64,000 nucleotides of DNA from Pelomonas sp. BJYL3 (GTDB lineage: Bacteria > Pseudomonadota > Gammaproteobacteria > Burkholderiales > Burkholderiaceae_C): NCBI RefSeq assembly GCF_027257975.1, contig NZ_JANZKX010000004.1, forward strand, positions 124,001 through 188,000. The letters are read 5' to 3'. Positions 5,254-46,604 of this stretch are shown here, piece by piece. The translations under genes and the position numbers were made by a program. Position 1 is the stretch's first letter, and every line of letters begins with the position of its first letter. The notes under the pieces were generated by a model. That model had not been told where the DNA came from, did no database searches, and worked only from the letters and a program-made list of their open reading frames with translations.

Positions 5254-7323
5254 TCAGCGCTCGTTCTGCTTCGCCGCCGCCGCCGCGGCCGCAGCCTTGG
5301 CCGCCAGCTCCTCGCGCATGCGCTTGAGCTTCTCGCGCGGGTCTTCCTTGATGCCGGACTCGTGCAAGCGCATCTCCGCGATGAAGCGGCTGGGGATGCC
5401 CATCACCATCTCGCGGGCCTTCTTGCGGCGGCGCAGGGTGCTCACGGCCAGCGTGGTGCGGGCGCGGGTGATGCCCACGTACATGAGGCGGCGTTCCTCC
5501 TCCAGGCGCTGGGCGGTCATCTCCTCGTCGTCGGCCTTGAAGGGCAGCAGGCCCTCGTTGACGCCGGCCAGGAAGACATGCGGCCACTCCAGGCCCTTGG
5601 AGGCATGCAGGGTGGTCAGCACGACCTGGTCCTGCTCCTCGCCGCGCTCGGAGAGCGAGAGGATCACGCTGATGGTCTGGGCGACCTGCAGCACCGTCTG
5701 CTTGGGCTCCTCGAAGGTGGCGCCGCCGTCCTGGGCCAGCTGGCCGCCGCAGCGCTTGGCCACCCAGTCGACGAAATCGAGGACGTTGCTCCAGCGCGCG
5801 GCGGCGGCCTTCTCGTTCTCGTCGTTGTCGTAGAGGTGCTGCTCGTAGCCGATGTCCTTGAGCCACTCCAGCATCAGCGTCTTGGCGTCCTCGGCGCCCT
5901 CGGTATGGCGGGCGCGGTACTCGAGGTCATTGAGGTAGCGGCCGAACTCGTGCAGGGAACCGATGGCCTTCTTGTTGAGCACGGTGGACAGCGAATCCGA
6001 GAACAGCGCCTCGTACATGCTGATCTTCCACCGGCCCGCGAACTGGCTCAATGCGCCCAGCGTGGTGTGGCCGATGCCGCGCTTGGGCGTGGTCACGGCG
6101 CGCAGGAAGGCGGGGTCGTCGTCCTGGTTGACCAGGAGGCGCAGCCAGGCGCAGAGGTCCTTGATCTCGCTCTTGTCGAAGAAGCTCTGGCCGCCGCTGA
6201 CCTTGTAGGGAATCTCGGCCCGGCGCAGGGCCTGCTCGAAGATGCGCGCCTGGTGATTGGCGCGGTAGAGGATGGCGAAGTCGGCGAACTTGACCTTGGC
6301 CCCGAGGCTGGCCCGGATGGCCTGGATGCGGGCCACGGCGCGCTCGGCCTCGTGCTCCTCGCCGTCGGCCTCGACCAGGGCGATGGGCTCGCCGTCGCCG
6401 TACTCGCTCCACAGCTTCTTCTGGAAGAGCTTGGGATTGGTCTCGATGACGTTGTTGGCCGCGCGCAGGATGGCGCCGGTGGAGCGGTAGTTCTGCTCCA
6501 GCGGGATGATCTTGAGATTGGGGTAGTCGACCGGCAGGCGCTTGAGGTTCTCGATGGTGGCGCCACGCCAGCCATAGATGCTCTGGTCGTCGTCGCCCAC
6601 GGCAGTGAACATGCCGCGCTCGCCCACGATGGCCTTGAGCAGCTCGTACTGCACGGAGTTGGTGTCCTGGTATTCATCCACCAGCACATAGCGCAGGGTG
6701 TCCTGCCACTTGCCGCGGGCCTCGGCGTCCTCGGTGAGCAGCTTCAGGGGCAGGCTGATGAGGTCGTCGAAGTCCACCGCCTGGTAGGCGGCCAGGCGCT
6801 CCTGGTAGCGGCCCATCACGACGGCGGCCACGCGCTCCTGCTCGTCCTTGGCGGCCTTGAGCGCCATCTCGGCGTTCAGGCCCATGTTCTTCCACAGCGA
6901 GATGGTCCATTGCCACTGCTTGGCCATGTTGGCGTCGGTGGTGCCGCCGGCATCGCGCAGCACGCCCAGGACGTCGTCGCTGTCCAGGATGGAGAACTGC
7001 TCCTTCAGGCCCACCCGCGTGCCCTCCTCGCGCAGCAGGCGCACGCCCAGGGAGTGGAAGGTGGAGATGGCCAGGTCCTTGGCCGCCCGCGCGCCCACCA
7101 GGCCCTTGGCCCGCTCGCGCATTTCCTGCGCGGCCTTGTTGGTGAAGGTGATGGCAGCGATGTTCTTCGCCTGGTAGCCGGCCTGCAGCAGGCGGGCGAT
7201 CTTGGTGGTGATGACGCGGGTCTTGCCCGAACCCGCACCGGCCACGACCAGGCAGGGCCCGTGCAGGTGGTGCACGGCTTCGAGCTGGGCGGGATTCAGG
7301 GTGGCGGTGGGATCGGCGGACAT
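5254..7323 (-). CDS. rep: ATP-dependent DNA helicase, Rep/UvrD family
   Basis: The protein is 689 residues from the ATG ending at 7323, close to the 673 residues of E. coli Rep. SF1A helicase motifs run in order: Q-motif region LNPAQLEAV, Walker A AGAGSGKT (28-35), motif Ia TFTNKAAQEM, motif II VDEYQDTN, motif III VGDDDQSIYGWRG, motif IV EQNYRST, motif V TLHASKGLEW and motif VI EEERRLMYVGITRA. It is a 3'-5' DNA translocase that clears the way for replication forks. The last 35 residues are Lys/Ala-rich. The assignment to Rep rather than UvrD rests on length and overall appearance and is less certain than the family. It is transcribed toward fic with a 156-bp gap. Confidence 0.9.
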   Translation of the reverse strand: MSADPTATLNPAQLEAVHHLHGPCLVVAGAGSGKTRVITTKIARLLQAGYQAKNIAAITFTNKAAQEMRERAKGLVGARAAKDLAISTFHSLGVRLLREEGTRVGLKEQFSILDSDDVLGVLRDAGGTTDANMAKQWQWTISLWKNMGLNAEMALKAAKDEQERVAAVVMGRYQERLAAYQAVDFDDLISLPLKLLTEDAEARGKWQDTLRYVLVDEYQDTNSVQYELLKAIVGERGMFTAVGDDDQSIYGWRGATIENLKRLPVDYPNLKIIPLEQNYRSTGAILRAANNVIETNPKLFQKKLWSEYGDGEPIALVEADGEEHEAERAVARIQAIRASLGAKVKFADFAILYRANHQARIFEQALRRAEIPYKVSGGQSFFDKSEIKDLCAWLRLLVNQDDDPAFLRAVTTPKRGIGHTTLGALSQFAGRWKISMYEALFSDSLSTVLNKKAIGSLHEFGRYLNDLEYRARHTEGAEDAKTLMLEWLKDIGYEQHLYDNDENEKAAAARWSNVLDFVDWVAKRCGGQLAQDGGATFEEPKQTVLQVAQTISVILSLSERGEEQDQVVLTTLHASKGLEWPHVFLAGVNEGLLPFKADDEEMTAQRLEEERRLMYVGITRARTTLAVSTLRRRKKAREMVMGIPSRFIAEMRLHESGIKEDPREKLKRMREELAAKAAAAAAAAKQNER

Positions 7324-7469
7324 GGCGGCTGGGGCTGATCCGGCGCCCTCGGCACCGGGCCGCGAATCATACAAGCCGCCCCTGACAGCCCTGCTGCCAC
7401 TCGGTGCCAGGGCTGACAGCCGCCCTGCCCCTCCCTATCATCTGCCCACCTGGACAGGGAAGGTGCCTC

Positions 7470-8285
7470 ATGATGGGTCGCTGGTGGGGATGGGTGGCAG
7501 GCCTGTGCGTCGTGGTGATGGCGTCTGGCGCCATGGCGCAGGAGGTCCTGGCCGTGGGCACCAGCTTTCCCCGGCTGTTCATGCCCGTGCCGGGCAATCC
7601 GCCGGAGGGCCTGGCGGTGGAGCTGCTGCAGGCCGTCGCCCAGCAGCGGGGCTGGCAGCTGCGCTTCGAGCACTACCCCTGGCCGCGCGCCCAGGCCATG
7701 GTCGAGCATGGCCAGGCCCAGATCCTCATCGGCCCCTACCGCACGCCCGAGCGCGAGCAGCGCTTCGTCTTCGCGCCCTCGGCCTTCTACGAGGACCGCC
7801 TGGTCTTCTACGGCGGCCCCGCGCCGCGCCCGCACTGGCAGGGGGACTACCGCGCCCTGGCCGGCCTGGAGATCGCGCAGGTGGCCGGCTGGGCCTATGG
7901 CGAGGCCTTCGAGCAGGCCCGCCCCCTGCTGCGGCTGACCACGGTGCGCGACGTGGAGACCGGCCTGCGCATGCTGCGCACCGGCCGCGTGGCCCTGCTG
8001 GCCACCAATGAGCGCAACACCCAGCCGGTCCTGGCCAATCTGGGCCTGCTGCAGCAGCTGGGTCCCGTGGAGGGGCCCGCCATCGGCCAGCTGCGCGGGC
8101 ATTTCGCCTGCTCGCGCCAGCCGCCCGCGCCCGCCCTGTGCGAGACACTGGAGCTGGCCCTGCAGCAGCTCAGGCGCACGGGCGAATGGCCGCGGCTCAA
8201 CCAGAAATGGGGCGTGGGCCTGCCGGAGGTGGACGGCGCCAGCAATGCGCTGTGGCGCCTGCCGGCGCGGGCCTACAGCCCCTGA
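7470..8285 (+). CDS. Periplasmic solute-binding protein (SBP_bac_3 type)
   Basis: The protein is 271 residues from the ATG at 7470, which follows an AGGGAAGG ribosome-binding site by six bases. It begins with a signal peptide (MMGRWWGWVAGLCVVVMASGAMA). The mature part (LAVGTSFPRLF...GLAVELLQAVAQQRGWQLRF...RAQAMVEHGQAQILIGPYRTPERE) follows the type 3 amino-acid-binding protein fold found in ABC transport and in two-component sensors. No permease or ATPase gene is nearby, so it is an orphan; in this bacterial group such orphans are common and the ligand cannot be told. It is divergent from the rep-like helicase gene. Confidence 0.8.
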   Translation: MMGRWWGWVAGLCVVVMASGAMAQEVLAVGTSFPRLFMPVPGNPPEGLAVELLQAVAQQRGWQLRFEHYPWPRAQAMVEHGQAQILIGPYRTPEREQRFVFAPSAFYEDRLVFYGGPAPRPHWQGDYRALAGLEIAQVAGWAYGEAFEQARPLLRLTTVRDVETGLRMLRTGRVALLATNERNTQPVLANLGLLQQLGPVEGPAIGQLRGHFACSRQPPAPALCETLELALQQLRRTGEWPRLNQKWGVGLPEVDGASNALWRLPARAYSP

Positions 8286-8330
8286 ACCTCGGGAGGCGCT
8301 CGCCCGGCCAGGGCACGGGGCCTGCCGCCC

Positions 8331-9383
8331 TCAGCCGCGCAGGTGGCTCATCGCCCACAGGGCCAGGCCCAGCACGCCCAGGGCGCCGACGACGATGCCC
8401 GGCAGCAGCCACTGGCGCCAGGCCGGCCGCCGCGGCGGTGCCTGCTTGCGGCTGGGCTTGATGCGCGGCATGGACAGCGTGGGCGTGGGCGGCAGCGGCG
8501 AGGGCACCTCGCCGGCCAGCCAGGCGCGGATGTCATCCGCCAGGGCCTTGGCCGTGGTGTAGCGCTCCATCATGCTGGCCGCGGTGGACTTGCTGAGCAT
8601 GGCGTCCAGGGCCTGGCGCTCGCCGAGGCTCAGGCTCACCCAGGCCGCCAGCGAATGCACCGGCGCGCCCAGGTGGCCGACGATGAGGCTGTCGCTGCCC
8701 GGCAGGCGGCCGTTGACCAGCAGGCACATGAGCATGCCCACCGCATAGGCCTCGCTGGCCAGGTGGGGCGGCTGGCCGTCCAGCTGTTCGGGAGCGAGCA
8801 GGGGAATGGCAGCCGAGCTGTAGCCGAAGTCACCCGGGCCCTCGACGGCCATCATGGGCGCCAGGCCCTGGCCCATCAGGCGCAGGCGCTGCTCGGGCGA
8901 AAGCCACAGCGTGCCCGGGTCCAGCTCGCGCAGGACCTGGCCGTGCTCGTGCAGCACTTCCAGCAGGTCGCAGAGGTCGCAGACCAGCTCCAGGCGCTTG
9001 CGCAGGGGCAGCTCCGCGGCGGCGGGCAGCAGGGGCTGGCCCTCCATCCAGCGCAGCACCACGTAGGGCAGGCCGTCGGCGGTGAGGCCGCTGTCCTGGG
9101 GCAGGGAGATGTCGATGTGACGCAGGCTCTGCAGGCCGGGCTGCTCCTCGGCGAAGCGCAGCAGCACCAGGGCGGCATCGGCGGCCTGCTCATAGACCAG
9201 CACCGCCACCTGCTGCTCCGGCGCCAGCGTGTGCTCGCCCCGGTACCAGTGCCCGGAGGCGCAGACCTGGATGTCCTCGACGATGCGCCAGACACCCAGG
9301 CGCTCGCCGACCGGCAGCACATGCAGGGGGGAGTCGAGGTCGGGCGGCGCGGTGGCCGGCCCTTCGGGCAGCGGAGCGTTCAT
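8331..9383 (-). CDS. Membrane-anchored protein-kinase-fold protein, probably a pseudokinase
   Basis: The protein is 350 residues. It has the layout of a Ser/Thr kinase domain: a glycine-loop-like start (GVWRIVEDIQVCASGHWYRG), a hinge (LPYVVLRWMEGQPL), the helix before the catalytic loop (LCDLLEVLHEHGQ) and an APEQL-like segment (LLAPEQLDG) followed by DG-rich C-lobe helices. The catalytic residues are missing: the VAIK lysine position reads VAVLVYE, the HRDLKPxN loop reads LRELDPGTL, and DFG reads LMGQG. A single transmembrane helix (LLPGIVVGALGVLGLALWAM) closes the protein, so the kinase fold faces the cytoplasm. The likely role is scaffolding or regulation rather than phosphorylation. No phosphatase or FHA gene is next to it. 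Confidence 0.75.
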   Translation of the reverse strand: MNAPLPEGPATAPPDLDSPLHVLPVGERLGVWRIVEDIQVCASGHWYRGEHTLAPEQQVAVLVYEQAADAALVLLRFAEEQPGLQSLRHIDISLPQDSGLTADGLPYVVLRWMEGQPLLPAAAELPLRKRLELVCDLCDLLEVLHEHGQVLRELDPGTLWLSPEQRLRLMGQGLAPMMAVEGPGDFGYSSAAIPLLAPEQLDGQPPHLASEAYAVGMLMCLLVNGRLPGSDSLIVGHLGAPVHSLAAWVSLSLGERQALDAMLSKSTAASMMERYTTAKALADDIRAWLAGEVPSPLPPTPTLSMPRIKPSRKQAPPRRPAWRQWLLPGIVVGALGVLGLALWAMSHLRG

Positions 9384-9476
9384 ACAGATTGCAGGCGTAA
9401 ATGTAAGCGCCAGCGCACAAAGACGGTCCCCCCCTTTTCAGCTGGATACAAGCCCGTATTGCGATACTCGCGCCTC

Positions 9477-10439
9477 ATGCAAGCCGTCATCGCCGTCACC
9501 GTGCCTTTCTTCGCCCTGGTGCTCTGCGGCTACCTGGCCGCACGCCGGGGACTGCTGGCGGAAAGCGCCATCCCGGGGCTCAACACCTTCGTGCTCTTCT
9601 TCGCGCTGCCCTGCATGCTGTTCCGCTTCGGCGCGAGCACGCCGCTGCTGGAGCTGCTGAGCCCGGCGGTGCTGGCGGTCTACCTGGCCTCGGCCCTGCT
9701 GATCGTGGGCGTGACCCTGTTCCTGACGCTGGACGACGTCACCCATCTCAAGGACGCCTCCTTCGGCGCCCTGGTCGCCGCCTTCCCCAACACCGGCTTC
9801 ATGGGCGTGCCCCTGCTGGTGGCACTGATGGGGCAGGCCGCGGCGGCGCCGGTGATCTGCACCATCCTGGCCGACCTCATCGTGACCAGCTCCCTGTGCA
9901 TCGCGCTGGCCCGGGCCCACGATGCCGGCGGCAGCCATTGGCGCGTGGCCCTCTGGCAGGCGCTCAGGGGCGCGCTGTCCAACCCGCTGCCCTGGGCCAT
10001 CGCCCTGGGCGCGCTGAGCTCGGTCAGCGGCTACACCCTGCCCCCCATGCTCATGACGGTGGTCAAGATGCTGGGCGATGCCGCCTCGCCGGTGGCCCTG
10101 TTCACCATCGGCGCGGTGCTGTGGCGCGCCGGCCAGCATGCCCACACGCGCACGCCCCCGGAGCGCTACCTGCCGGTGGCCCTCATCAAGCTCTTCGGGC
10201 ACCCGACCCTGGTGCTGCTGCTCGGCGCCACGGCAGTCAAGATGGGCCTGGACCTCAGCCCCTTCCAGCTGCATGTGCTGGTGCTGGCCGCAGCCCTGCC
10301 CAGCGCCAGCAACGTCTCGCTGCTGGCCGAGCGCTACGGTGCGGACAACGGCCGCATCGCCCGCATCATCATGGCCTCCACCGTGATCGCCTTCTTCAGC
10401 TTCAGCGGGCTGGCGACCTGGCTGGTGCCGCAGCCATGA
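9477..10439 (+). CDS. AEC family transporter (auxin efflux carrier-like permease)
   Basis: The protein is 320 residues from the ATG at 9477 (MQAVIAVTVPFFALVLCGYL) and is almost entirely hydrophobic, with about ten membrane helices in two halves. AEC-type features include NTFVLFFALPCMLF and AFPNTGFMGVPLL in the first half and PSASNVSLLAERYG in the second. Bacterial members carry malonate, malate or other organic acids; the substrate is not evident here. It starts 93 bp from the divergent pseudokinase gene and its TGA overlaps a possible early start (10436) of the following peptidase frame, so the two may be co-transcribed. Confidence 0.88.
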   Translation: MQAVIAVTVPFFALVLCGYLAARRGLLAESAIPGLNTFVLFFALPCMLFRFGASTPLLELLSPAVLAVYLASALLIVGVTLFLTLDDVTHLKDASFGALVAAFPNTGFMGVPLLVALMGQAAAAPVICTILADLIVTSSLCIALARAHDAGGSHWRVALWQALRGALSNPLPWAIALGALSSVSGYTLPPMLMTVVKMLGDAASPVALFTIGAVLWRAGQHAHTRTPPERYLPVALIKLFGHPTLVLLLGATAVKMGLDLSPFQLHVLVLAAALPSASNVSLLAERYGADNGRIARIIMASTVIAFFSFSGLATWLVPQP

Positions 10440-10504
10440 GCCTGGGCCTTGATGCCCCCGTCAGCCGCGTGCGCTATCGTGCGCGGCATCCTGCCCCCGC
10501 CGCC

Positions 10505-12952
10505 ATGCGCCTTCTCCGCCACGTCCTCACCGTCCTGCCCGGGCTGCTGCTTGCCAGCGCCCTGCTGCCCACGGCCGCCGGTGCAGCCGGCTACCAGCAG
10601 CCCTCGGCCGCCGTGCGCGAGCTGCTGGACACCGCGCCCCTGCCCCGCCTGCTCCCCTCACCGGACCGCCAGCAGCTGGCGCTGATCGAGATGCGCCGCT
10701 TCTCGACCATCGAGGACCTGCAGCGCCCCACCCTGCACCTGGCCGGTACCCGCTTCGACGCCGGCAGCAGCGTGGCGCCGGGCGTCGCGGCCATCCAGCG
10801 CCTGCGCCTGAGGGCCCTGCTGCAGCCGGACGCGCCGGAACGCGTGGTCGAGCTGCCCGCCGGCGGCCTGTGGCATGACTTCGCCTGGGCACCCGACGGC
10901 CAGCGCTTCCTCATCGAACGCCGCATGGAGCGGGCCAACGAGCTGTGGGTGGGTGACACCGCCAGCGGCGCCGTGCGCCCCATCCAGGGCCTGCGGCTCA
11001 ACGAGGTGCTGGCCCAGGGCGAGAAGGCGTGGCTCAACCCGCGCGAGCTGGTCGTGCTGAGCGTGCCCGACCACCGCGGCCCGCCGCCCCGCCTGGCGCC
11101 CCAACCCATCAGCGAGGAAAGCCGGGGCCTGGCCTCACCCGAGCGCACCCATCCTGATCTGCTGCATGGCCCGCAGGACGAGGCCCTGTTCGAGTACCAC
11201 GCCCGCTCGGTGCTGACCTGGGTGGACCTCGCCAGCGGCGCCAGCCGGGACCTCGGCCCGCCCCAGCTCTACAGCAGCGTGAGCAGCGTGGGCGAGGGCC
11301 AGTACCTTCTGACCGAGCGCATCAGCCGCCCCTTCAGCTACCGCCTGCCCTGGGACGATTTCCCGACCACCGTGGAAGTGCGCCAGCGCGACGGCAAGCT
11401 GATCCGCGAGCTGGCGCGCATGCCGCTGAAGAGCGGCGTGGCCATCGACGGCGTGCTGCCCGGGCCGCGCGTGTTCTATGCCTCGCCCATGAAGGATGCG
11501 GCCGTCTACTGGATCGAGGCCCTGGACGGCGGCAACCCGGCCCAGCGCGTGGCCTTCCGCGACCGCGTGATGCGCCTGGACCCGCCCTTCACGGGCGAGC
11601 CGCTGGAGGTGCAGCGCATGCCGCACCGCTTCTCGCGCCTGCAGTTCCTGGACGACGGCCAGAACGCCCTGCTCACCGAGGTCGACCGCCAGCGCGCCTG
11701 GCAGCGCAGCTACCTGCTGCCGCTCAAGGGCACGCAGAGCAAGCCCCTGTTCGAGTTCAGCCAGCGCGAGCGCTTCCGCCACCCCGGCACGCCGCTGACG
11801 CGCCTGCTGCCCAACGGCCACCTCGTGGTGCAGACCCTGGGCGGCGACCTGCTGATGACGGGCCCCGGCGCCAGCCCCAAGGGTGATCGCCCCTTCCTGG
11901 ACCGCTTCTCGCTGCGGGACCTCAGCGCCCAGCGCCTGTTCCAGTCGCCCGAGGGCAGCTACGAGACGCCCCTGGCCGTGCTGGAAGGCGGCAAGCAGTT
12001 GCTGCTCAGCCGCGAGAGTGCCAGCGAGCCGCCCAACCTCGCGCTGCGCGAGCTGGCCTCGGGCAACAGCCTGCAGGCCCTCACGCGGCTGAAGGACAAC
12101 ACGCCGCAGCTGCGCAGGATCCGCCGCGAGTTCATCAGCTTCAAGCGCTCGGACGGCGTGGACATGTCCTTCTGGATGTACCTGCCGCCCGACTACAAGG
12201 AGGGCGAGCGCCGCCCCACCCTGGTCTGGGCCTATCCGCTGGAGTACAGCGACGCCTCCATCGCCAGCCAGGTCAGCGGCGCCCCCAACCGCTTCCTGAG
12301 CTTCAACGGCATCAGCCCCCTGGCCCTGCTGCTGGACGGCTTCGTGGTGCTCTACGACGCCCACATGCCCGTCGTGGGCGACCTGAAGACGGTGAACGAC
12401 GGCTTCATCGAGCAGATCACCATGAACGCCCGCGCCATCATCGACAAGGCCGAGGACCTGGGCGTGTCCGACCCGAAACGCATGGCCGTGGGCGGCCACA
12501 GCTACGGCGCCTTCATGGCCGTCAACCTGCTGGCGCACACCGACCTCTTCAAGGCCGGCATCGCCCGCAGCGGGGCCTACAACCGCACGTTGACGCCCTT
12601 CGGCTTCCAGAGCGAGCGCCGCTCACTCTGGGACGCGAAGGAGGTCTATCTCAACCTCTCGCCCCTGCTCTATGCACCGCAGATCAGGGAGCCCCTGCTG
12701 CTGCTGCACGGCGAGCAGGACGGCAACGCGGGCACGCCGCCGCTGCAGAGCGAGCGCCTGTACCACGCGCTGTCCGGCCTGGGCGGCACGGTGCGCCTCA
12801 CGATGCTGCCCCTGGAATCCCACGGCTACAGCGCCCGCGAGTCCGCCGGCCATGTGCAGTGGGAGATGAGCCGCTGGCTCAAGACCTGGCTGGGCGACCC
12901 GCGGGACAACGGCCGTGAACCGCGCGAGGGCAAGGCCTCGGCACCGCGCTGA
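10505..12952 (+). CDS. S9 family peptidase, glutamyl endopeptidase-like (S9D)
   Basis: The protein is 815 residues from the ATG at 10505, chosen because it starts a good signal peptide (MRLLRHVLTVLPGLLLASAL). The N-terminal two thirds are beta-propeller-like. The C-terminal alpha/beta hydrolase domain carries the catalytic triad: Ser666 in GGHSYGAF, Asp739 in GEQDGN and His773 in ESHGY. The stretch GIARSGAYNRTLTPFGFQ matches plastid glutamyl endopeptidase (S9D) as I recall it. It probably trims peptides after Glu in the periplasm. It follows the AEC permease gene by 65 bp and runs convergently into priA with an 18-bp gap. Confidence 0.9.
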   Translation: MRLLRHVLTVLPGLLLASALLPTAAGAAGYQQPSAAVRELLDTAPLPRLLPSPDRQQLALIEMRRFSTIEDLQRPTLHLAGTRFDAGSSVAPGVAAIQRLRLRALLQPDAPERVVELPAGGLWHDFAWAPDGQRFLIERRMERANELWVGDTASGAVRPIQGLRLNEVLAQGEKAWLNPRELVVLSVPDHRGPPPRLAPQPISEESRGLASPERTHPDLLHGPQDEALFEYHARSVLTWVDLASGASRDLGPPQLYSSVSSVGEGQYLLTERISRPFSYRLPWDDFPTTVEVRQRDGKLIRELARMPLKSGVAIDGVLPGPRVFYASPMKDAAVYWIEALDGGNPAQRVAFRDRVMRLDPPFTGEPLEVQRMPHRFSRLQFLDDGQNALLTEVDRQRAWQRSYLLPLKGTQSKPLFEFSQRERFRHPGTPLTRLLPNGHLVVQTLGGDLLMTGPGASPKGDRPFLDRFSLRDLSAQRLFQSPEGSYETPLAVLEGGKQLLLSRESASEPPNLALRELASGNSLQALTRLKDNTPQLRRIRREFISFKRSDGVDMSFWMYLPPDYKEGERRPTLVWAYPLEYSDASIASQVSGAPNRFLSFNGISPLALLLDGFVVLYDAHMPVVGDLKTVNDGFIEQITMNARAIIDKAEDLGVSDPKRMAVGGHSYGAFMAVNLLAHTDLFKAGIARSGAYNRTLTPFGFQSERRSLWDAKEVYLNLSPLLYAPQIREPLLLLHGEQDGNAGTPPLQSERLYHALSGLGGTVRLTMLPLESHGYSARESAGHVQWEMSRWLKTWLGDPRDNGREPREGKASAPR

Positions 12953-12970
12953 GGCCGCCGCGCGCAGGGC

Positions 12971-15091
<2,121 letters not shown>

Positions 15092-37801: not shown

Positions 37802-38028
37802 GCAATGGACTTCCTGCTGCTGGCCCGAACAGCCCATGCTAGGGCCAAACGCGGCGCAGAGGCTGTGCCGCCCGGGCCGGCGTCGCGGCGGCGTCACGCA
37901 CTTATTTCACGCTGCCGAAGGTTGAGGCGGCCGGGCTTTCCCGGGGCGTCAGCAAGGCGCAGGCCGGGCTCGATAAGATCGTTTGCAATTTCGATTGCAG
38001 GCCCCCGTCCACACCCGGCCGCGCCGCC

Positions 38029-38667
38029 ATGAACGCCCCCGCCCCGCTCCATTTCCTCGTCGTCGATCCGCTGCCCGGCGTCCAGACCTTTGCACGCCAG
38101 CTGCTGGAGGGCTACGGCTTTCCAGCGGACAGCATCCGCTGCTGCAGCCGGCCCGACGAGGCCCTGGCCCTGCTGCCCGGCTTCCGCCCCCAGTTCCTGA
38201 TCTGCGACTGGTTCCCCAAGGAGGCGCTCAGCGGCATCGCCCTGCACCGGCAGGTCTGCCAGCAGGTGCCGGACTGCCGGCTCGCACTGCTGAGCTTCGA
38301 GACCGGCCCCGAGCAGCAGGCTCAGGCCCAGGCGGCCGGCGCCCGCTTCCTGCTGAAGAAGCCCTTCACGGCCCAGGAGCTGAAGAGCACCCTGCGCCAG
38401 GCCCTGGAAAAGCTGGCCACCGAACGGCCCGAGCTGCACCGGCGCCTGCAGCAGGTCATGGGCTCGCCGCAGGTGATGCAGCGGGTGTCGGCCCCCATCC
38501 CGATGCCGGCCATGCCCCAGGTGCCTCCGCTGAAGCCGGGCGACCGCGTGCGCCTGGGCAGCAGCACCGAGGTGGTGGACGCCGTGGTCATCCGCCAGGG
38601 CGAGCTGGTGGTGCAGCTGAAGAACAAGAACGGCCTGATCCCGGCCGACAAGCTGCAGCGCGCCTGA
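38029..38667 (+). CDS. Response regulator with small C-terminal beta-domain
   Basis: The protein is 212 residues. Residues 7-128 form a REC domain with the phosphoacceptor Asp60 (FLICDWFP), Ser89 and Lys111 (LLKKPF). A Pro/Met-rich linker (about 150-165) leads to a C-terminal segment of some 45 residues (LKPGDRVRLGSSTEVVDAVV, then VQLKNKNGLIPADKLQRA) that looks like a small SH3-like barrel. I do not recognise this output domain. It is not a standard DNA-binding or enzymatic output. The divergent gene, 227 bp away, encodes the GGDEF protein, so a joint signalling role is possible. Confidence 0.75.
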   Translation: MNAPAPLHFLVVDPLPGVQTFARQLLEGYGFPADSIRCCSRPDEALALLPGFRPQFLICDWFPKEALSGIALHRQVCQQVPDCRLALLSFETGPEQQAQAQAAGARFLLKKPFTAQELKSTLRQALEKLATERPELHRRLQQVMGSPQVMQRVSAPIPMPAMPQVPPLKPGDRVRLGSSTEVVDAVVIRQGELVVQLKNKNGLIPADKLQRA

Positions 38668-38688
38668 GCCCGGCGCCAGGCCTCGTGC

Positions 38689-40554
38689 TCAGCGGGCGCC
38701 CAGGGTCTCCCAGCGCTCCAGCAGGACCATCAGCTCCTCCTCGATGGCCGCCGCCCGGTTCGTGACCTCCTGGATGCGGCCGGCGCCCTGCGTGTAGAGC
38801 TCGGTACCGCCGATCAGGGCGTTGAGTGCCGCCTGCTCGGCTTCCAGGGCCTCGATGCGGCCCGGCAGTTCGTCCAGCTCGCGCTGCTCCTTGTAGCTGA
38901 GCTTGCGTTTGGCCGCGGCAGGCGCCGCCACCGCCGGTGCCGGCGCCGGGGTGGCCTTGGGTGCAGCCGCAGCCGCCATGGCCCTGGCACGCTGGGACTG
39001 CGTCAGCCAGTCCTGCACGCCGCCCTCGTACTCGCGCCAGACGCCATCCCCCTCAGAGACCAGCGTGGAGCTGACCACGTTGTCCAGGAAGCGGCGGTCA
39101 TGGCTGACCAGGAAGACCGTGCCGTCATAGTCCTGCAGCAGCTCTTCCAGCAGCTCCAGGGTCTCGATGTCGAGGTCGTTGGTGGGCTCGTCCAGCACCA
39201 GCACATTGGCCGGGCGGGCGAAGAGCCGGGCCAGCAGCAGGCGGTTGCGCTCGCCGCCGGAGAGGCTCTTGACCGGCGAGTTGGCGCGCTGCGGGGCGAA
39301 GAGGAAGTCGCCCAGATAGCTCATCACGTGCTTGCGCTGGTTGCCGATCTCGATCCATTCGCTGCCCGGGCTGATGGTGTCGGCCAGCGTGGCTTCCAGG
39401 TTGAGCCCGTCACGCATCTGGTCGAAATAGGCCACGGTGAGGCGGGTGCCCTGGCGCACGGTGCCGCTGTCAGGGGCCAGCTCGCCCAGGATCAGCTTCA
39501 GCAGCGTGGTCTTGCCCGCGCCGTTGGGGCCGATCAGGCCGATCTTGTCGCCGCGCAGGATGGTGGTGCTGAACTCGCGCACCACGGTGCGCTCGCCGAA
39601 GCGCTTGCTGACCTTGTCCAGCTCCGCGACGATCTTGCCGCTGGCGTCGCCGGTGGCGATGTCCAGGCGCACCTTGCCCTGCACGTCGCGCCGGGCGGCG
39701 TGGGCCTCGCGCATCTGCATCAGGCGGGCGACGCGCGCCACGCTGCGGGTGCGGCGGGCCTCCACGCCCTTGCGGATCCAGACCTCCTCCTGCGCCAGGA
39801 CCTTGTCGAAGCGGGCATTGGCCAGGGCCTCGTTCTCCAGCTCGTACTGCTTGGCGGCCTGGAAGGCGGCGAAGTTGCCGGGGTAGCCACGCAGCTGGCC
39901 CCGGTCCAGCTCGACGATGCGGTTGCAGACGTTGTCAAGAAAGGCGCGGTCGTGGGTGATCAGCAGCAGGCTGCCCTTGAAGGCATTGAGCAGGCCTTCG
40001 AGCCAGGCGATGGCGTCCAGGTCCAGGTGGTTGGTGGGCTCGTCCAGCAGCAGCACGTCGGGCTGGGCCACCAGGGCGCGGGCCAGGGCCACGCGCTTCT
40101 TCAGGCCGCCGGACAGCGCACCGACCTGGCGGCTGCCGTCCAGACCCAGGCGCTGCAGGGTCTCCTCCACCCGCTGCTCCCAGGTCCAGCCGCCCAGCTG
40201 CTCCAGGCGGGTCTGCAGGGCGTCGAGGTCCTCGCCCGGGGCATGGGCCTCGAAGCGCTCGCGCAGCGCGCGGGCCTCGGCCACGCCTTCGCTGACGACC
40301 TCGAAGATGCTGGCCTCGGCCCGCAGCGCGGGCTCCTGGGGCACGTAGACGCTGCGCAGGCCCAGCTGCAGCTGCAGCAGGCCGTCGTCGAGCTTGTCGA
40401 TGCCGGCCAGGATCTTGAGCAGGGAAGACTTGCCGGTGCCGTTGCGGCCGATCAGGCCCACGCGTTCACCGGTTTCCAGCGCGAAATTGGCACCATCCAG
40501 CAGCGGCACATGGCCGTAGGCGAGATGGGCATTGGTCAGGGAGAGGACAGCCAT
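38689..40554 (-). CDS. uup: ABC-F family ATPase Uup
   Basis: The protein is 621 residues from the ATG ending at 40554 (MAVLSLTNAHLAYGHVPLLD). Two ABC cassettes are present: Walker A GRNGTGKS and GPNGAGKT, signature motifs LSGGLKKRV and LSGGERNRLLLA, and Walker B LLLDEPTNHLD and LVLDEPTNDLD. There are no membrane helices. The C-terminal Ala/Pro linker and coiled coil (LSYKEQRELDELPGRIEALE) identify Uup rather than EttA. ABC-F proteins act on ribosomes; Uup also affects transposon excision in E. coli. It converges on the response regulator gene. Confidence 0.95.
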   Translation of the reverse strand: MAVLSLTNAHLAYGHVPLLDGANFALETGERVGLIGRNGTGKSSLLKILAGIDKLDDGLLQLQLGLRSVYVPQEPALRAEASIFEVVSEGVAEARALRERFEAHAPGEDLDALQTRLEQLGGWTWEQRVEETLQRLGLDGSRQVGALSGGLKKRVALARALVAQPDVLLLDEPTNHLDLDAIAWLEGLLNAFKGSLLLITHDRAFLDNVCNRIVELDRGQLRGYPGNFAAFQAAKQYELENEALANARFDKVLAQEEVWIRKGVEARRTRSVARVARLMQMREAHAARRDVQGKVRLDIATGDASGKIVAELDKVSKRFGERTVVREFSTTILRGDKIGLIGPNGAGKTTLLKLILGELAPDSGTVRQGTRLTVAYFDQMRDGLNLEATLADTISPGSEWIEIGNQRKHVMSYLGDFLFAPQRANSPVKSLSGGERNRLLLARLFARPANVLVLDEPTNDLDIETLELLEELLQDYDGTVFLVSHDRRFLDNVVSSTLVSEGDGVWREYEGGVQDWLTQSQRARAMAAAAAPKATPAPAPAVAAPAAAKRKLSYKEQRELDELPGRIEALEAEQAALNALIGGTELYTQGAGRIQEVTNRAAAIEEELMVLLERWETLGAR

Positions 40555-40671
40555 GGGGGCGGATTGTCCCAGACTCGGCCGCGGCTCCGGGCCACGGGCC
40601 TGCCCCCCCTCTGGCGGCGTCCATTGGGCGATTGCTGATCCGGACATCCAATTACCTGCAACTTCTTACAG

Positions 40672-40699
40672 TTGCCCCACCCAGGGCAATACTTAGCAT
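40672..40699 (+). promoter_or_regulatory. Possible promoter with inverted repeat before the ATP-grasp gene
   Basis: TTGCCC (40672-40677) and TAGCAT (40694-40699) are spaced by 16 bases and could be -35 and -10 elements. The TTGCCC also forms one arm of a perfect inverted repeat TTGCCC-CACCCA-GGGCAA (40672-40689), which would place a repressor site over the promoter. Both hexamers are weak matches. Confidence 0.35.
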
Positions 40700-40724
40700 C
40701 CACCCGCGCCTCATGAAGAGATAA

Positions 40725-41771
40725 ATGATATTAATAATCTCCACCGAGTCTGATTTTCATGCGCACGTCGTATCAAAGGGCCTGGATGAATTAGGCAGCC
40801 ATAGTCAGCTGCTCTGCCTGGACGGGTCCCCCTTCAATCATGAGATATCACTGAGCCTGCAGGAAGAAGAGTGCCTGCGCTTCCGGAGCAGGGCTCGCAG
40901 CGCGGCGCTGGACTTTAGCAAGGTTCGAACAATCTGGCACCGACGCAGCGGCAGCATTTCCGCCCCAGACCGGCTCCCCTCCAAGAATCACAAGATATTC
41001 AATCAAGAGTGGCAGGATTCGAGGCGGGGCATGCTGCATCTTCTCGATCAAGCCGCCCCATTCTGGGCAAATCATTGGATGCAGGCCTGGCGTGCCGAAA
41101 ACAAGGTACTCCAGCTCAGCATGGCCAAAAAGCTCGGATTCAAAATTCCCAGGACGCTCATCTCCAACTCAGCGGATGAAATTCGTCGCTTTTACGAGTT
41201 GCATGATGGAAACATCATTCACAAGATGTTCAACCCTGCGACATTCGAGGGCGCGACAGCCTGCACCGCCAAGGTAGCGCCGGAACTGATGAGTCAAACA
41301 CAGACCCTCGGGTTGTGTCCGGGCATATTCCAGGAGTTTCTGGACATCGAATTCGAGGCCCGCGTGCTGGTGGCAGGAGAGGAAATCCTGGCCGCCAAGA
41401 TGATCAATAGCGGAAAGGCAGGTATCGACATTAGGCGGGATCAGCTCGGCGGGCTGGCGATCACGCCCATGGAGCTGCCTGCGGCAATCCATGAGCGCTG
41501 CATTCAACTGACCCGGCAGCTGGGACTCTGCACCTGTTCAATTGATCTGGCATATACCCGTTCCGGCCAGTGGAATTTCTTCGAAGTCAATCAGGCTGGA
41601 CAGTTTCTCTGGATGGAACTGCACGAACCGGAGCTGCGCACCCTGGACCTGATGTGCAGGTTCTTGGTTTCGGGAACAGCGGATTTCAGACTTAGGGAAA
41701 AGCCCAGCCTGAAACTCGCAGATCATCTGCCAAAAGAATTCTTTGACCGGCCAGGTCAGGAATGGAAGTAA
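40725..41771 (+). CDS. ATP-grasp peptide ligase, graspetide-maturase-like
   Basis: The protein is 348 residues from the ATG at 40725, preceded by GAAGAG. It resembles the MvdC/MvdD/PsnB ligases that join Ser/Thr/Lys side chains to Asp/Glu side chains of precursor peptides. Visible features are the N-terminal Rossmann-like part ending in IWHRR (70-74), the linker ENKVLQLSMAKKLGFKIPRT (125-144), nucleotide-binding Lys167 in IIHKMF, QEFLDIEFEARV (203-214), Asp274 in SIDLAY, and the magnesium-site stretch FFEVNQAGQFLW (285-296) with Glu287 and Asn289. The next gene is a small precursor-like gene 32 bp downstream. Codons ending in A/T (for example ATA, TTA, AAT) contrast with neighbours and suggest transfer. 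A glutathione- or RimK-like ligase is less likely because of the WHRR and EVNQAGQ motifs. Confidence 0.82.
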   Translation: MILIISTESDFHAHVVSKGLDELGSHSQLLCLDGSPFNHEISLSLQEEECLRFRSRARSAALDFSKVRTIWHRRSGSISAPDRLPSKNHKIFNQEWQDSRRGMLHLLDQAAPFWANHWMQAWRAENKVLQLSMAKKLGFKIPRTLISNSADEIRRFYELHDGNIIHKMFNPATFEGATACTAKVAPELMSQTQTLGLCPGIFQEFLDIEFEARVLVAGEEILAAKMINSGKAGIDIRRDQLGGLAITPMELPAAIHERCIQLTRQLGLCTCSIDLAYTRSGQWNFFEVNQAGQFLWMELHEPELRTLDLMCRFLVSGTADFRLREKPSLKLADHLPKEFFDRPGQEWK

Positions 41772-41803
41772 ACCCCATCAAATCCAACCACGAAGAGGCA
41801 ATC

Positions 41804-41992
41804 ATGAAACACACCGACACCCAAGGCGAAACCCTGGAAATCAAGATGCTGGGTGAATACTCGGCCCAAGACCTCAGCGACGAAGAAATCAATTCCGTGG
41901 CCGGCGCCCGGTGGGTCTCGACCGTCACCACGGACAGCGGCTGGGGCCCCAATCCCTTCTGCCCCTGCCCTGACAGGGACTTCATCAGCTGA
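41804..41992 (+). CDS. RiPP precursor peptide, graspetide-like
   Basis: The gene encodes 62 residues from the ATG at 41804, which has GAGG five bases upstream; an in-frame ATG at 41762 overlaps the ligase gene and has no ribosome-binding site. The leader (about residues 1-35) is acidic and ends LSDEEINSVAGA, the pattern of GG/GA-type leaders. The 27-residue core carries hydroxyl residues Ser39, Thr40, Thr42, Thr43 and Ser45 and acids Asp44, Asp57 and Asp59, plus a Pro/Cys segment PFCPCP (51-56). Thr/Ser to Asp ester links by the adjacent ATP-grasp ligase are the obvious prediction. The microviridin leader motif PFFARFL is absent, so it would belong to another group. Confidence 0.78.
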   Translation: MKHTDTQGETLEIKMLGEYSAQDLSDEEINSVAGARWVSTVTTDSGWGPNPFCPCPDRDFIS

Positions 41993-42006
41993 TCCCGAAG
42001 ATCCCG

Positions 42007-42031
42007 GGCGCGTGGACCTCCTCCACGCGCC
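42007..42031 (+). terminator. Strong hairpin after the precursor peptide gene
   Basis: A perfect 10-bp stem GGCGCGTGGA / TCCACGCGCC with a 5-base loop begins 14 bases after the precursor stop codon. There is no T tract. It may stabilise the precursor mRNA or give partial termination before the DUF6624-like gene. Confidence 0.6.
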
Positions 42032-42100
42032 TGCTGCGCTCCGCGGATACCGGGGCCGGATGCCTCCAGCACGTGCCGTCATCGCCAGCCGAGCATTCCA

Positions 42101-42814
42101 ATGATCACCCGCATGAAATCTGAACCCCTACGCTTGCGCCACAGGACCTTCGTTTGCGGATGCGCCTGGATGGCCTTGCTTCTTGCAGTCCATGTCCGTG
42201 CTGAGGATGCGCCGCGCGTGCCTGACTTTTCAATCTCGACCCCATGCGACTGGTACAAGGAAACCCGGCAAACCAACCAGTGGTTCGAACGCGATCAGCA
42301 ACCGCGCCAACAGCTTATGGCCATCTACTCGCGCGCCCAGGAAAGCGGCATCGCGGCGGATCCGGCCCAGGTCAAGGAAGCCATGGCGTTGATTGATGAG
42401 GCCGATGGCGCCCTGAGGAAGGCGTTGGAGGATCTGGTCACCCGGTGCGGCTGGCCGTCAAGAACCGCCTTTGGGCAAGCGGCCGTCCAGTCCGCCTACA
42501 TGGTCGTCCAGCACGCGCCTCTGGATTACCAGCTCAAGTACCTGCCCGTCATCACGGCAGCGACGGCCCAGGGTGAATTCGAGAAAAGACATCTGGCGCT
42601 GCTGACGGACCGGATTCTCGTCAGACAGCAAAAGCCACAGCGCTATGGCACTCAGACCCGAGTCATCGACGCGCTCGGGAATGCGGAGATGTTCCCCATC
42701 GAGGATGAAGAGGCCGTGGATCGGCTTCGCGCGGATGCGGGCATCGTCCCGGTCTCCATCTGCGCTTACGCTTCGATGATGAACGCCCGCCTGAAGCGCT
42801 GCGAAGGGCCATAG
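42101..42814 (+). CDS. Exported DUF6624-like protein of the RiPP locus
   Basis: The protein is 237 residues (start at 42101; an in-frame ATG at 42113 is also possible). A signal peptide (FVCGCAWMALLLAVHVRA) precedes an all-helical domain. The segments CGWPSRTAFGQAA (116-128), VQHAPLDYQLKYLPV (136-150), LLTDRI, QRYGTQ (180-185) and the ending PIEDEEAVDRLRADAGI (199-215) match DUF6624 as I remember it, a family of unknown function. It lies 108 bp downstream of the precursor peptide gene on the same strand, behind a hairpin, and its GC content is intermediate. Processing, binding or immunity are possible roles; none is shown by the sequence. Confidence 0.72.
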   Translation: MITRMKSEPLRLRHRTFVCGCAWMALLLAVHVRAEDAPRVPDFSISTPCDWYKETRQTNQWFERDQQPRQQLMAIYSRAQESGIAADPAQVKEAMALIDEADGALRKALEDLVTRCGWPSRTAFGQAAVQSAYMVVQHAPLDYQLKYLPVITAATAQGEFEKRHLALLTDRILVRQQKPQRYGTQTRVIDALGNAEMFPIEDEEAVDRLRADAGIVPVSICAYASMMNARLKRCEGP

Positions 42815-42857
42815 GCTAGCTGGCCACCCCGCCCTTCGCCGGGCCTGGCTGCGTGCC

Positions 42858-43718
42858 TCAGACCCAGACGCGATAGGCCCAGAAGGCCTCGTCCGTGTCG
42901 ATGCGCCGGCGCAGCTCCTCCGGGCTGAAGCCGGTGACGCGGCGGGTCTCGCGGCACAGATGGGCCTGGTCCGCATAGCCCGCGTCCTGGGCCAGGGCGC
43001 TCCACAGCACCTCGCCAGCCTCCATCTCGCGGCGCACCCGGTGGAAGGTGGACTCGGCACGGCTGACGCGGCGCAGGGCCTGCATGCTCTGGCCGCTCCA
43101 GCGCTTGATGCGGCGCTCGACCTGGCGCAGGCTGTCACCGTGGCCGCCGGCCACCGCCTTCAGCGCCAGGTTCTGCATCCAGTCCCGGTAGCGGCGCGGC
43201 GGCGAGGCCTGGCTCTGCGCCCAGGCCCGCCAGCGCGGCAGCAGGAATTCCTCCAGCAGGGCCTGGCAGGCGTGCTCGTCGGGGGCGGCCAGCAAGGCGG
43301 TGTTGAGGGCCTGCCAGTCGGCCCCCAGGGCGGATTCGATGGGCTCGTAGCGGTCCAGCAGGGCCGTCAGGTCTACGCCGGTCAGCGCATGCAGCGCCTC
43401 CGGCAGCATGGCCACCATGAAGCAGCGCGTGCCGGCATCGGAGCGGAACTGGGCGGGCCGGGTACGCGGCCCGCCGACCAGGCAGCGGCCGCCCAGGCGA
43501 CGCTCGCTGCCGTCGTCCAGGACCTGGCAGCCGTCGCCCTCCAGCACCCAGGTCATGCCGCAGAAGGGCGTGGCCGGGAAGTGGGAGCTGCGCTGCGCCG
43601 CGGTGAGCGAGGCAGCGGCCGTGGTGTCGCGCCAGAGGGAGGCATAGAGGCAGCCGCTGAGGGCCAGGCTGGGCGCTATCAGCCGGGCGACGGCATCGGG
43701 GTGGCGGTCGCTGTCCAT
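42858..43718 (-). CDS. AraC family transcriptional regulator
   Basis: The protein is 286 residues. The C-terminal AraC-type double helix-turn-helix is clear (RIKRWSGQSMQALRRVSRAE, then SALAQDAGYADQAHLCRETRRVTGFSPEELRRRI). The N-terminal part resembles a small effector-binding domain with a FCGMTWVLEGDGCQVLDDGS beta segment. It is divergent from the P450 gene with 96 bp between the starts and probably controls it. It converges on the RiPP locus. Confidence 0.92.
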   Translation of the reverse strand: MDSDRHPDAVARLIAPSLALSGCLYASLWRDTTAAASLTAAQRSSHFPATPFCGMTWVLEGDGCQVLDDGSERRLGGRCLVGGPRTRPAQFRSDAGTRCFMVAMLPEALHALTGVDLTALLDRYEPIESALGADWQALNTALLAAPDEHACQALLEEFLLPRWRAWAQSQASPPRRYRDWMQNLALKAVAGGHGDSLRQVERRIKRWSGQSMQALRRVSRAESTFHRVRREMEAGEVLWSALAQDAGYADQAHLCRETRRVTGFSPEELRRRIDTDEAFWAYRVWV

Positions 43719-43814
43719 GGCGGCAGTGTAGTCAGGCCGGAGACAGGGGGAGGTCCGGGCCGATGTCGATTTCGTTCAAGACCCGCCGCGGGCGTCTCGC
43801 CACCATGCGGGCCC

Positions 43815-45209
43815 ATGAACACCCAGACCCTCACCCCGACGACCTCCGCCCTCCCTCCAGGCCCCGCCGGCCTGGGCTTCGACCGCCTGCGCGCCCTCAG
43901 CCGCGACTACCTCGGCCCGCTGCGCCAATGGCATGCGCAGTATGGCGACGTCGTCCGCCAGCGCTTCGTCCACCTGGTGGACTACAGCTTCCTGCACCCC
44001 GACCACATCCGCGAGGTGCTGGTGGCCTCGCACGAGCAGCTAATCCGTTGGGAGCGCGGCACCGAGGTGTTTGCCAGCGCCCACGGCCACAGCGTGCTGG
44101 TGGCCGAAGGCGAGGCTTGGCAGCGCCAGCGTCAGATGCTGCAGCCCGCTTTCGCGCCCCGGCGTGTCGAGAGCTTCGTGCCGCGCATGGTGGACGCCGC
44201 CCGCGAGAGCCTGCAGCGCTGGCAGGGCCAGCCGAACTTCGAACTGGACTTCGATTTCGAATCGGCCATGACCCAGGTCACCATGGAGGTGATCATGCGC
44301 GCCCTCTTCTCCCGCGGCGACGAACAGCAGGGGCGCGCCATGGCCGCCGCCGTGCATGACCTGGGCATCGAGGCCATGCAGGAGTTCTACTGGCCGGTCA
44401 GCGCCCCGCTGTGGATGCCCTGGAAGGCCCGCAAGCGACGGGCCCTGCAGCTGCTCAAGCGCTTCATCGAGGCGGAAGTCGATCAACGCCTGGCCCGGAC
44501 CGAGACCCGCGAGGACACCGGCGCCGACACCGGCACCGACCTGCTGGGCCTGATGCTGGCGGCCCAGGACGCCCAGGGCCAGGGCTTCGACGCCCATGCC
44601 CTGAGGGACGAATGCATGACGACCTTCCTCGCGGGGCACGAGACCACCGCGGCCGCCCTCACCTGGTGGGGCTGGTGCATGGCGTCACATCCCGAGGAGC
44701 AGCGCCGTGTCGCCGACGAGCTGCAGGCCGTGCTGGGCGAGCGCGCGCCCACCGCTGCCGACCTCCCCCAGTTGCCCCGCCTGGCCCGCAGCTTCAAGGA
44801 GAGCCTGCGCCTGTATCCACCGGCGGCCGCCCTGTTCTCGCGGCGCACGACCGCGCCGGTCCGGGTGGCCGGCTACACGCTGCCGGTGGGCAGCATGGTG
44901 CGCATCACGCCCGCCCTCACGCACCGCGATCCGCGCTGGTTCCTCGAGCCGGAGGCCTTCCGCCCCGATCGCTTCGACCCGGCGGCCGGCCACCCGGAGA
45001 TCCCGCGCGGCGCCTGGCTGCCCTTCGGCGCCGGCCCGCGCGTATGCCTGGGCAGCCATTTCGCGCTGACGGAGATGAGCGTGATCGCCGCCCTGCTGCT
45101 GCAGCGCTACGAGCTGCAGACCGTGCCCGGCCGGCGCGCGCCGCAACCGCGCCTGGACATCACCCTGCGTCCCGACGTGCCGCTGCACCTGGCCCTGAAG
45201 CGGCGCTGA
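43815..45209 (+). CDS. Cytochrome P450
   Basis: The protein is 464 residues from the ATG at 43815 (MNTQTLTPTTSALPPGPAG). P450 signatures are complete: the oxygen-binding helix FLAGHETTAAALTWW, the ExxR motif in FKESLRLYPP, and the heme-binding loop FGAGPRVCLGSHFA with the axial Cys411. There is no membrane anchor, so it is soluble. It resembles CYP102/CYP110-like fatty-acid or terpene hydroxylases in overall motif spacing, but the substrate cannot be assigned. No ferredoxin gene is nearby. The divergent AraC regulator probably controls it. Confidence 0.95.
   Translation: MNTQTLTPTTSALPPGPAGLGFDRLRALSRDYLGPLRQWHAQYGDVVRQRFVHLVDYSFLHPDHIREVLVASHEQLIRWERGTEVFASAHGHSVLVAEGEAWQRQRQMLQPAFAPRRVESFVPRMVDAARESLQRWQGQPNFELDFDFESAMTQVTMEVIMRALFSRGDEQQGRAMAAAVHDLGIEAMQEFYWPVSAPLWMPWKARKRRALQLLKRFIEAEVDQRLARTETREDTGADTGTDLLGLMLAAQDAQGQGFDAHALRDECMTTFLAGHETTAAALTWWGWCMASHPEEQRRVADELQAVLGERAPTAADLPQLPRLARSFKESLRLYPPAAALFSRRTTAPVRVAGYTLPVGSMVRITPALTHRDPRWFLEPEAFRPDRFDPAAGHPEIPRGAWLPFGAGPRVCLGSHFALTEMSVIAALLLQRYELQTVPGRRAPQPRLDITLRPDVPLHLALKRR

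Positions 45210-45284: not shown

Positions 45285-46604
<1,320 letters not shown>

Follow-up and report, generated by a model that had tools for sequence, protein, structure and literature searches.

A compact graspetide-type cassette with an adjoining DUF6624 gene and no local exporter in Pelomonas sp. BJYL3

In graspetides, wide variation of the core peptide behind one type of leader has been reported (PMC8939145). The protein family DUF6624 is described as frequent in four graspetide groups (18, 20, 23 and 42), and it has been suggested that it may represent a new biosynthetic enzyme class (PMC13097080). The family called "Cluster 23" in the first of these articles, which is reported often to carry a signal peptide and to have conserved His and Arg residues (PMC8939145), may be the same as DUF6624. 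For the group 8 graspetides of Legionella pneumophila, a further article describes the loss of three waters and the cleavage of precursor A, not of precursor B, by the C39 protease LahT150 (PMC9576775); these peptides may belong to the ligase clade treated below. The locus described here lies in a stretch of 64,000 nt of Pelomonas sp. BJYL3, hereafter the window, and has a synthetase, a short precursor and DUF6624 in common with the published DUF6624-bearing loci; groups 18, 20 and 23 show high co-occurrence with an NHLM-type transporter, whereas no transporter adjoins the locus of the window (PMC13097080).

Microviridin loci (MdnB/MdnC) resemble the window in the MvdC/MvdD type of their ligases and in a precursor leader that ends in small residues, but the window encodes one ligase instead of two, falls in a separate clade, and its precursor lacks both the PFFARFL leader and the TxKYPSD-type core, so that the original prediction was right in setting it apart from the microviridins. 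A canonical microviridin locus with a PFFARFL leader, two TLKYPSDGDDHL cores and two ligases is also present in the same genome (L026, G000:C1:1117000-1136000, at 8014-10475), and microviridin-type precursors and ligases occur in both sister species, G001 and G002. Two plasmid loci also resemble the window. That of Legionella adelaidensis (L064) shares the ligase clade and leaders of the form RV[LM]AYQLAK...IAGG, but has three precursors, an exported HEAT-type protein and HlyD plus a peptidase-containing transporter (PCAT) in the operon, and no DUF6624; to guess from genus and layout, it might be linked with group 8 (Gra-7 of L. pneumophila). The locus on pPLS206 of Xylella taiwanensis (L063) shares a precursor whose leader ends in LTETEMNLVSGA, the ligase and DUF6624 (63.7 bits), and differs in lying on a conjugative plasmid, with the precursor first and, upstream, a protein that has a weak trypsin-like match.

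Set against these systems, the claim that the locus forms a different group holds with respect to the microviridins and is less novel than it seemed, since named records of alpha- and gammaproteobacteria contain the clade, and the association with DUF6624 is already in print (PMC13097080). It is a new example of a known natural-product class and not a new kind of system, distinguished by an unusual gene order, the lack of a local exporter and an unmatched core. We consider it quite probable that the locus is a horizontally acquired, exporter-less graspetide cassette, in which the ligase would close rings in the core, a PCAT would export the product in trans and DUF6624 would serve as a periplasmic partner. 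The three genes look like a recent acquisition. Such a very small graspetide system would be a clean and testable case for asking by what means RiPP cassettes without an exporter of their own obtain one.

The features of the locus were derived from the open reading frame listing and its translation (Table 1). The precursor ATG lies 32 bp past the ligase stop, the longest form of its reading frame beginning at 41762, and the left bound proposed originally, 40672, lies 53 bp upstream of the ligase ATG. The motifs that had been quoted, namely WHRR, ENK...QL and FFEVNQAGQFLW in the ligase and LSDEEINSVAGA and PFCPCP in the precursor, are all found in the translations. A chance arrangement is argued against because the Pfam models for the MvdD pre-ATP-grasp domain and DUF6624 are both matched above their cut-offs and a leader profile picks the small reading frame first. 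Judged by sequence tests, 40725-42814 is a graspetide cassette in every respect but the conservation of core positions. A promoter scan of the locus gave no match, and six terminator-like sites all lie within the ligase or DUF6624 gene.

Table 1. Coordinates of the features of the locus in the window and of the related Xylella locus.
Feature	Position	Strand	Remarks
Graspetide-type ATP-grasp ligase	40725-41771	+	348 aa, ATG start
Precursor peptide	41804-41992	+	62 aa from ATG at 41804
Leader, residues 1-35	41804-41908	+	ends in KMLGEYSAQDLSDEEINSVAGA; aligns with leaders adjoining related ligases
Predicted core, residues 36-62	41909-41989	+	read off the sequence
DUF6624 protein	42101-42814	+	237 aa; PF20329, 70.8 bits
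Inserted stretch	40574-42854		blastn against the G001 and G002 sites; right edge between 42828 and 42854
Xylella taiwanensis graspetide locus	L063 5014-8414		upstream protein with a trypsin-like match of 20.5 bits, below cut-off

The ligase matches the Pfam MvdD pre-ATP-grasp domain (PF21068) with 32 bits at a cut-off of 27, and among the NCBIfam models it scores 168 bits with TIGR04187, 152 with MvdC and 143 with MvdD. Being under the curated cut-off of each of these three, it is on sequence grounds a divergent member of the MvdC/MvdD type. Its best solved relatives are the PDB chains 5ig9, 5ig8, 7mgv (CdnC) and 7m4s (AMdnB). Residues K167, D274, E287 and N289, which we take to function in ATP/Mg binding, are invariant in all seven aligned rows.

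Relatives of the ligase were sought in 399 genomes of the family and 399 of the order, the own genome included (E <= 1e-30), which gave proteins of 31-34% identity in G002 (two), G047, G105, G670 and G411. A profile search of 369 genomes of the class (E <= 1e-60) added five further clade ligases in G890, G1072, G1104 (two) and G826, and also returned two pairs, one at the microviridin locus of the own genome and one in G817, the latter left out of the loci opened. A ligase match was present in 74 plasmid records, of which 20 were listed and nine opened; a tenth, from Xylella, was reached through DUF6624, which is matched by five Xylella records. The clade leader is present in three of the ten, and these constitute the plasmid loci of the clade, from Legionella adelaidensis, Xylella taiwanensis and Bradyrhizobium sp. 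CB82. A ligase-only scan of the genome contigs gave one weak relative, and a scan of viral contigs gave one (L090, 3983-4981), a graspetide-type ligase near which there is no match to the clade leader.

In a ligase tree of 27 rows, the window and all leader-bearing ligases share one fork with support of 95/91. The Bradyrhizobium row, chosen as outgroup, fell inside this clade and turned out to have the leader. Once four rows were removed, those of Xylella and Pedobacter and of two RimK-type proteins, the 14 remaining leader-bearing ligases make up one side of a branch with support of 99/98, which is found in 100% of 200 bootstrap trees. The window ligase itself forms a long branch (2.08-2.27), with at most 31% identity to any row of the two trees, and because of this length its nearest relative within the clade is unsure.

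The leader common to this clade is of the type R[VIM]LAxxxAxxLxxEELxxVAG[GA] and is found in a small peptide at all 15 clade loci examined. The 14 loci outside the window follow a looser pattern, R-[VIM]-[LFIM]-[AGS]-x(7)-[hydrophobic]-x-x-E-x-[LIM]-x-x-[VI]-[AS]-G-[GA], with single-position exceptions; the window leader fits the clade pattern with Lys replacing Arg. Most outside precursors had first been chosen by eye or with a loosened pattern, the strict pattern having found precursors in two of the first nine stretches, three of which are microviridin loci. As a guard against such picking by eye, a leader profile was built from 16 outside precursors, with Bradyrhizobium and the window left out, and used to rank the window reading frames of 25-200 aa, among which the window precursor came first of 468 (E 6.9e-5, the next being 0.39). 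Moreover, in a leave-one-locus-out scheme, 14 of 15 loci, the window included, had their own precursor as the top hit among the small reading frames in the vicinity of the ligase, although the window lies in the lower part of the range of clade scores; the one precursor left unranked (L022) sits within a reading frame above the 200-residue limit. The co-occurrence of ligase and peptide expected originally is thereby borne out, and the reading of the small gene as the precursor agrees with the leader-bearing small reading frame in each of the 14 outside clade loci opened. At one of them (L054), a second precursor-like frame of 19.7 bits lies between the first precursor and the ligase (7281-7475, minus strand).

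In the leave-one-locus-out scheme, nine ligase loci outside the clade gave at best 12.4 bits, for the microviridin precursor, and elsewhere at most 8.5. With the profile of 16 outside precursors, the window precursor scored 17.6 bits against about 13 for a microviridin and 12.8 for a peptide of a lanthipeptide locus. Since the profile also matches these two, the GG half is not specific but a leader ending of general occurrence, and it is the RVLA half that by sequence comparison sets the clade apart, a signature suggested to go with one ligase clade. This half (K14-M-L-G in the window) would be what the ligase binds, and the leader would be removed after Gly-Ala, the cut falling after Ala35. 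Against Pfam and NCBIfam, the window precursor has lantibiotic matches only, both under the cut-off (14.2 and 12.5 bits, respectively), and neither the precursor nor the whole insert has a match in the plasmid collection.

The core of the window reads RWVSTVTTDSGWGPNPFCPCPDRDFIS. Its predicted donors are Ser39, Thr40, Thr42, Thr43, Ser45 and Ser62 and its predicted acceptors Asp44, Asp57 and Asp59, together with Cys53 and Cys55; all residue numbers given in the original prediction are correct. The ligase would phosphorylate Asp side chains of this 27-residue core, and the phospho-Asp side chains would then be joined to Ser/Thr side chains, resulting in ester rings. Among the 18 cores counted, from which the second frame of L054 was left out, Asp/Glu residues number 3-7 (window 3) and Ser/Thr residues 1-11 (window 6), and at least two Cys, as in the window, occur in eight of the 17 outside cores. 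The plesiocin-type TTxxxxEE is absent from all 18, in agreement with what had been noted for the window. The expected conservation of Thr/Ser and Asp positions, on the other hand, could not be shown, as these positions differ between the cores of the clade; because they are not shared, comparison reveals no ring pattern and any choice of ester sites is a guess. Searches of the three genus genomes and of the plasmid collection gave no close relative of the window core, and its combination of Ser/Thr/Asp with a CPC pair is unmatched in the searches made.

The third gene exceeds the cut-off of PF20329 (27 bits) by far, and the protein has by eye a Sec-type signal peptide at residues 1-34. Columns that are invariant in all 12 aligned DUF6624 members include Q137, H138, D170, R171, Q180, G183, Q185 and R210, all kept in the window, and judging from the alignment the polar residues among them would fit a catalytic or a binding function. 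A single-sequence AlphaFold model of the mature protein had a mean pLDDT of 49.5. The only PDB matches with phmmer were to bacterioferritin (E 0.44-0.5), which were taken as chance, and no DUF6624 was matched in viral contigs. Three clade ligases have DUF6624 as a neighbor, namely those of the window, of G002 (37.8 bits) and of the Xylella plasmid, which makes it plausible, as first proposed, that it belongs to the system, and in all three cases a signal peptide is seen by eye, for Xylella only in a longer reading of the frame.

It is nevertheless conceivable that ligase and precursor are real and that DUF6624 came along as an unrelated passenger of the insertion. Among 20 DUF6624 matches drawn from 300 genomes of the order and 260 of the family, 18 have no ligase within 1.5 kb, the window and G002 being the two that do, with contig ends shortening some of the loci, and six of the 15 clade loci have neither DUF6624 nor a HEAT-type protein in the stretches read. 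Against a mere passenger speak the three unlike genomes in which the gene adjoins a clade ligase, its frequency in four published graspetide groups (PMC13097080), and six other clade loci (L051, L052, L053, L054, L055, L064) in which a different protein, HEAT-type and exported as judged by eye, takes its place beside the ligase; the HEAT-type call refers to one protein above and one below the Pfam HEAT_2 cut-off, and for the rest to similarity to two of those proteins. We therefore regard a passenger as rather unlikely and favor DUF6624 as the periplasmic partner of the cassette. An exported DUF6624 would act after leader removal, and therefore immunity or late processing would be its most likely role. 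In this way the signal peptides narrow the roles that DUF6624 can have in the several graspetide groups that it accompanies.

The cassette lies in about 2.26-2.28 kb of DNA that is extra in the window, the site being empty by blastn in both sister species. G001 aligns to the window over 38003-40573 and 42855-45176, with 24 bp of G001 in between, and G002 aligns up to 40573 and again from 42829, with 13 bp of G002 in between; the flanking genes, named by eye as ABC-F-type and AraC-type, are adjacent in both. The GC content is 0.587 over 40574-42828, whereas the 5 kb on either side have 0.694 and 0.706, and GC3 is 0.66 for the ligase, 0.79 for the precursor and 0.75 for DUF6624 versus 0.93-0.94 for the two neighboring genes. 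No repeats flank the insertion, and repeats within 40500-43000 are short.

No C39 match is found inside the window and no exporter adjoins the cassette, so the earlier statement that a transporter is lacking is true for the vicinity of the locus, but a PCAT is encoded elsewhere in the genome. Four C39 matches of the genome are over the cut-off. One is a full-length PCAT followed by an HlyD protein (C23:79159-81276), about 84 kb from the precursor; another, on C22, belongs to a lanthipeptide locus of class I whose LanC-like and dehydratase matches reach 90.6 and 354 bits and which also has HlyD, and the remaining two are weaker (42.5 and 26.3 bits). This lanthipeptide locus (L060, G000:C22:759000-775000, at 5662-14915) encodes PCAT, HlyD, LanC-like and dehydratase proteins and has a Cys-rich GG peptide at 9196-9468. 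All three species of the genus have the C23 PCAT, the orthologs in G001 and G002 being 96% and 91% identical, respectively. In G001 no clade ligase was found, the two weaker matches both being at a microviridin locus. In G002, about 1.57 kb with a clade ligase and precursor lie in the PCAT region between otherwise colinear blocks (L021 vs L061), where the window genome has a gap of 50 bp. The PCAT therefore persists with or without a neighboring cassette, and the PCAT and HlyD pair on C23 would be the one that exports the core in trans.

An alternative to a functional cassette is one in decay from which no product is made. The precursor comes after the ligase, whereas in all 14 outside loci it precedes it; the ligase branch is long, and the window contains no C39 match. 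All three frames are open, however, the clade-invariant ligase residues and the DUF6624 invariants are retained, and a PCAT resides in the genome, which makes decay improbable. That the ligase is instead of the RimK/glutathione type and adds amino acids, next to a chance or unrelated small reading frame, is hardly credible, because the match to the Pfam RimK-like ATP-grasp domain (21.2 bits, cut-off 21) is outweighed by an NCBIfam rimK_fam score of only 34.5 bits versus 143-168 for the peptide maturases, RimK/GshB not being the best match, by the two RimK-type proteins of the genus (Pfam RimK 37.5 and 37.6 bits) branching apart outside the clade on a long stem, and by the first rank of the leader match. 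The original assignment of the ligase to the graspetides, and away from a RimK/glutathione branch, is thus upheld.

With the graspetide cassette as the preferred reading, a broader picture can be offered tentatively, to which we give somewhat less than an even chance: minimal graspetide cassettes, consisting of ligase and precursor with or without DUF6624, may enter clean chromosomal sites in the genus and make use of a resident, shared peptidase-exporter, and DUF6624 would be exported and serve either immunity or finishing in the periplasm once the leader is gone.

Elsewhere in the window, a chitinase-like protein is encoded at 45285-46604 on the minus strand, with matches to GH18 (52.4 bits) and CBM5/12 (53.6 bits) and a long Pro-Thr repeat linker.
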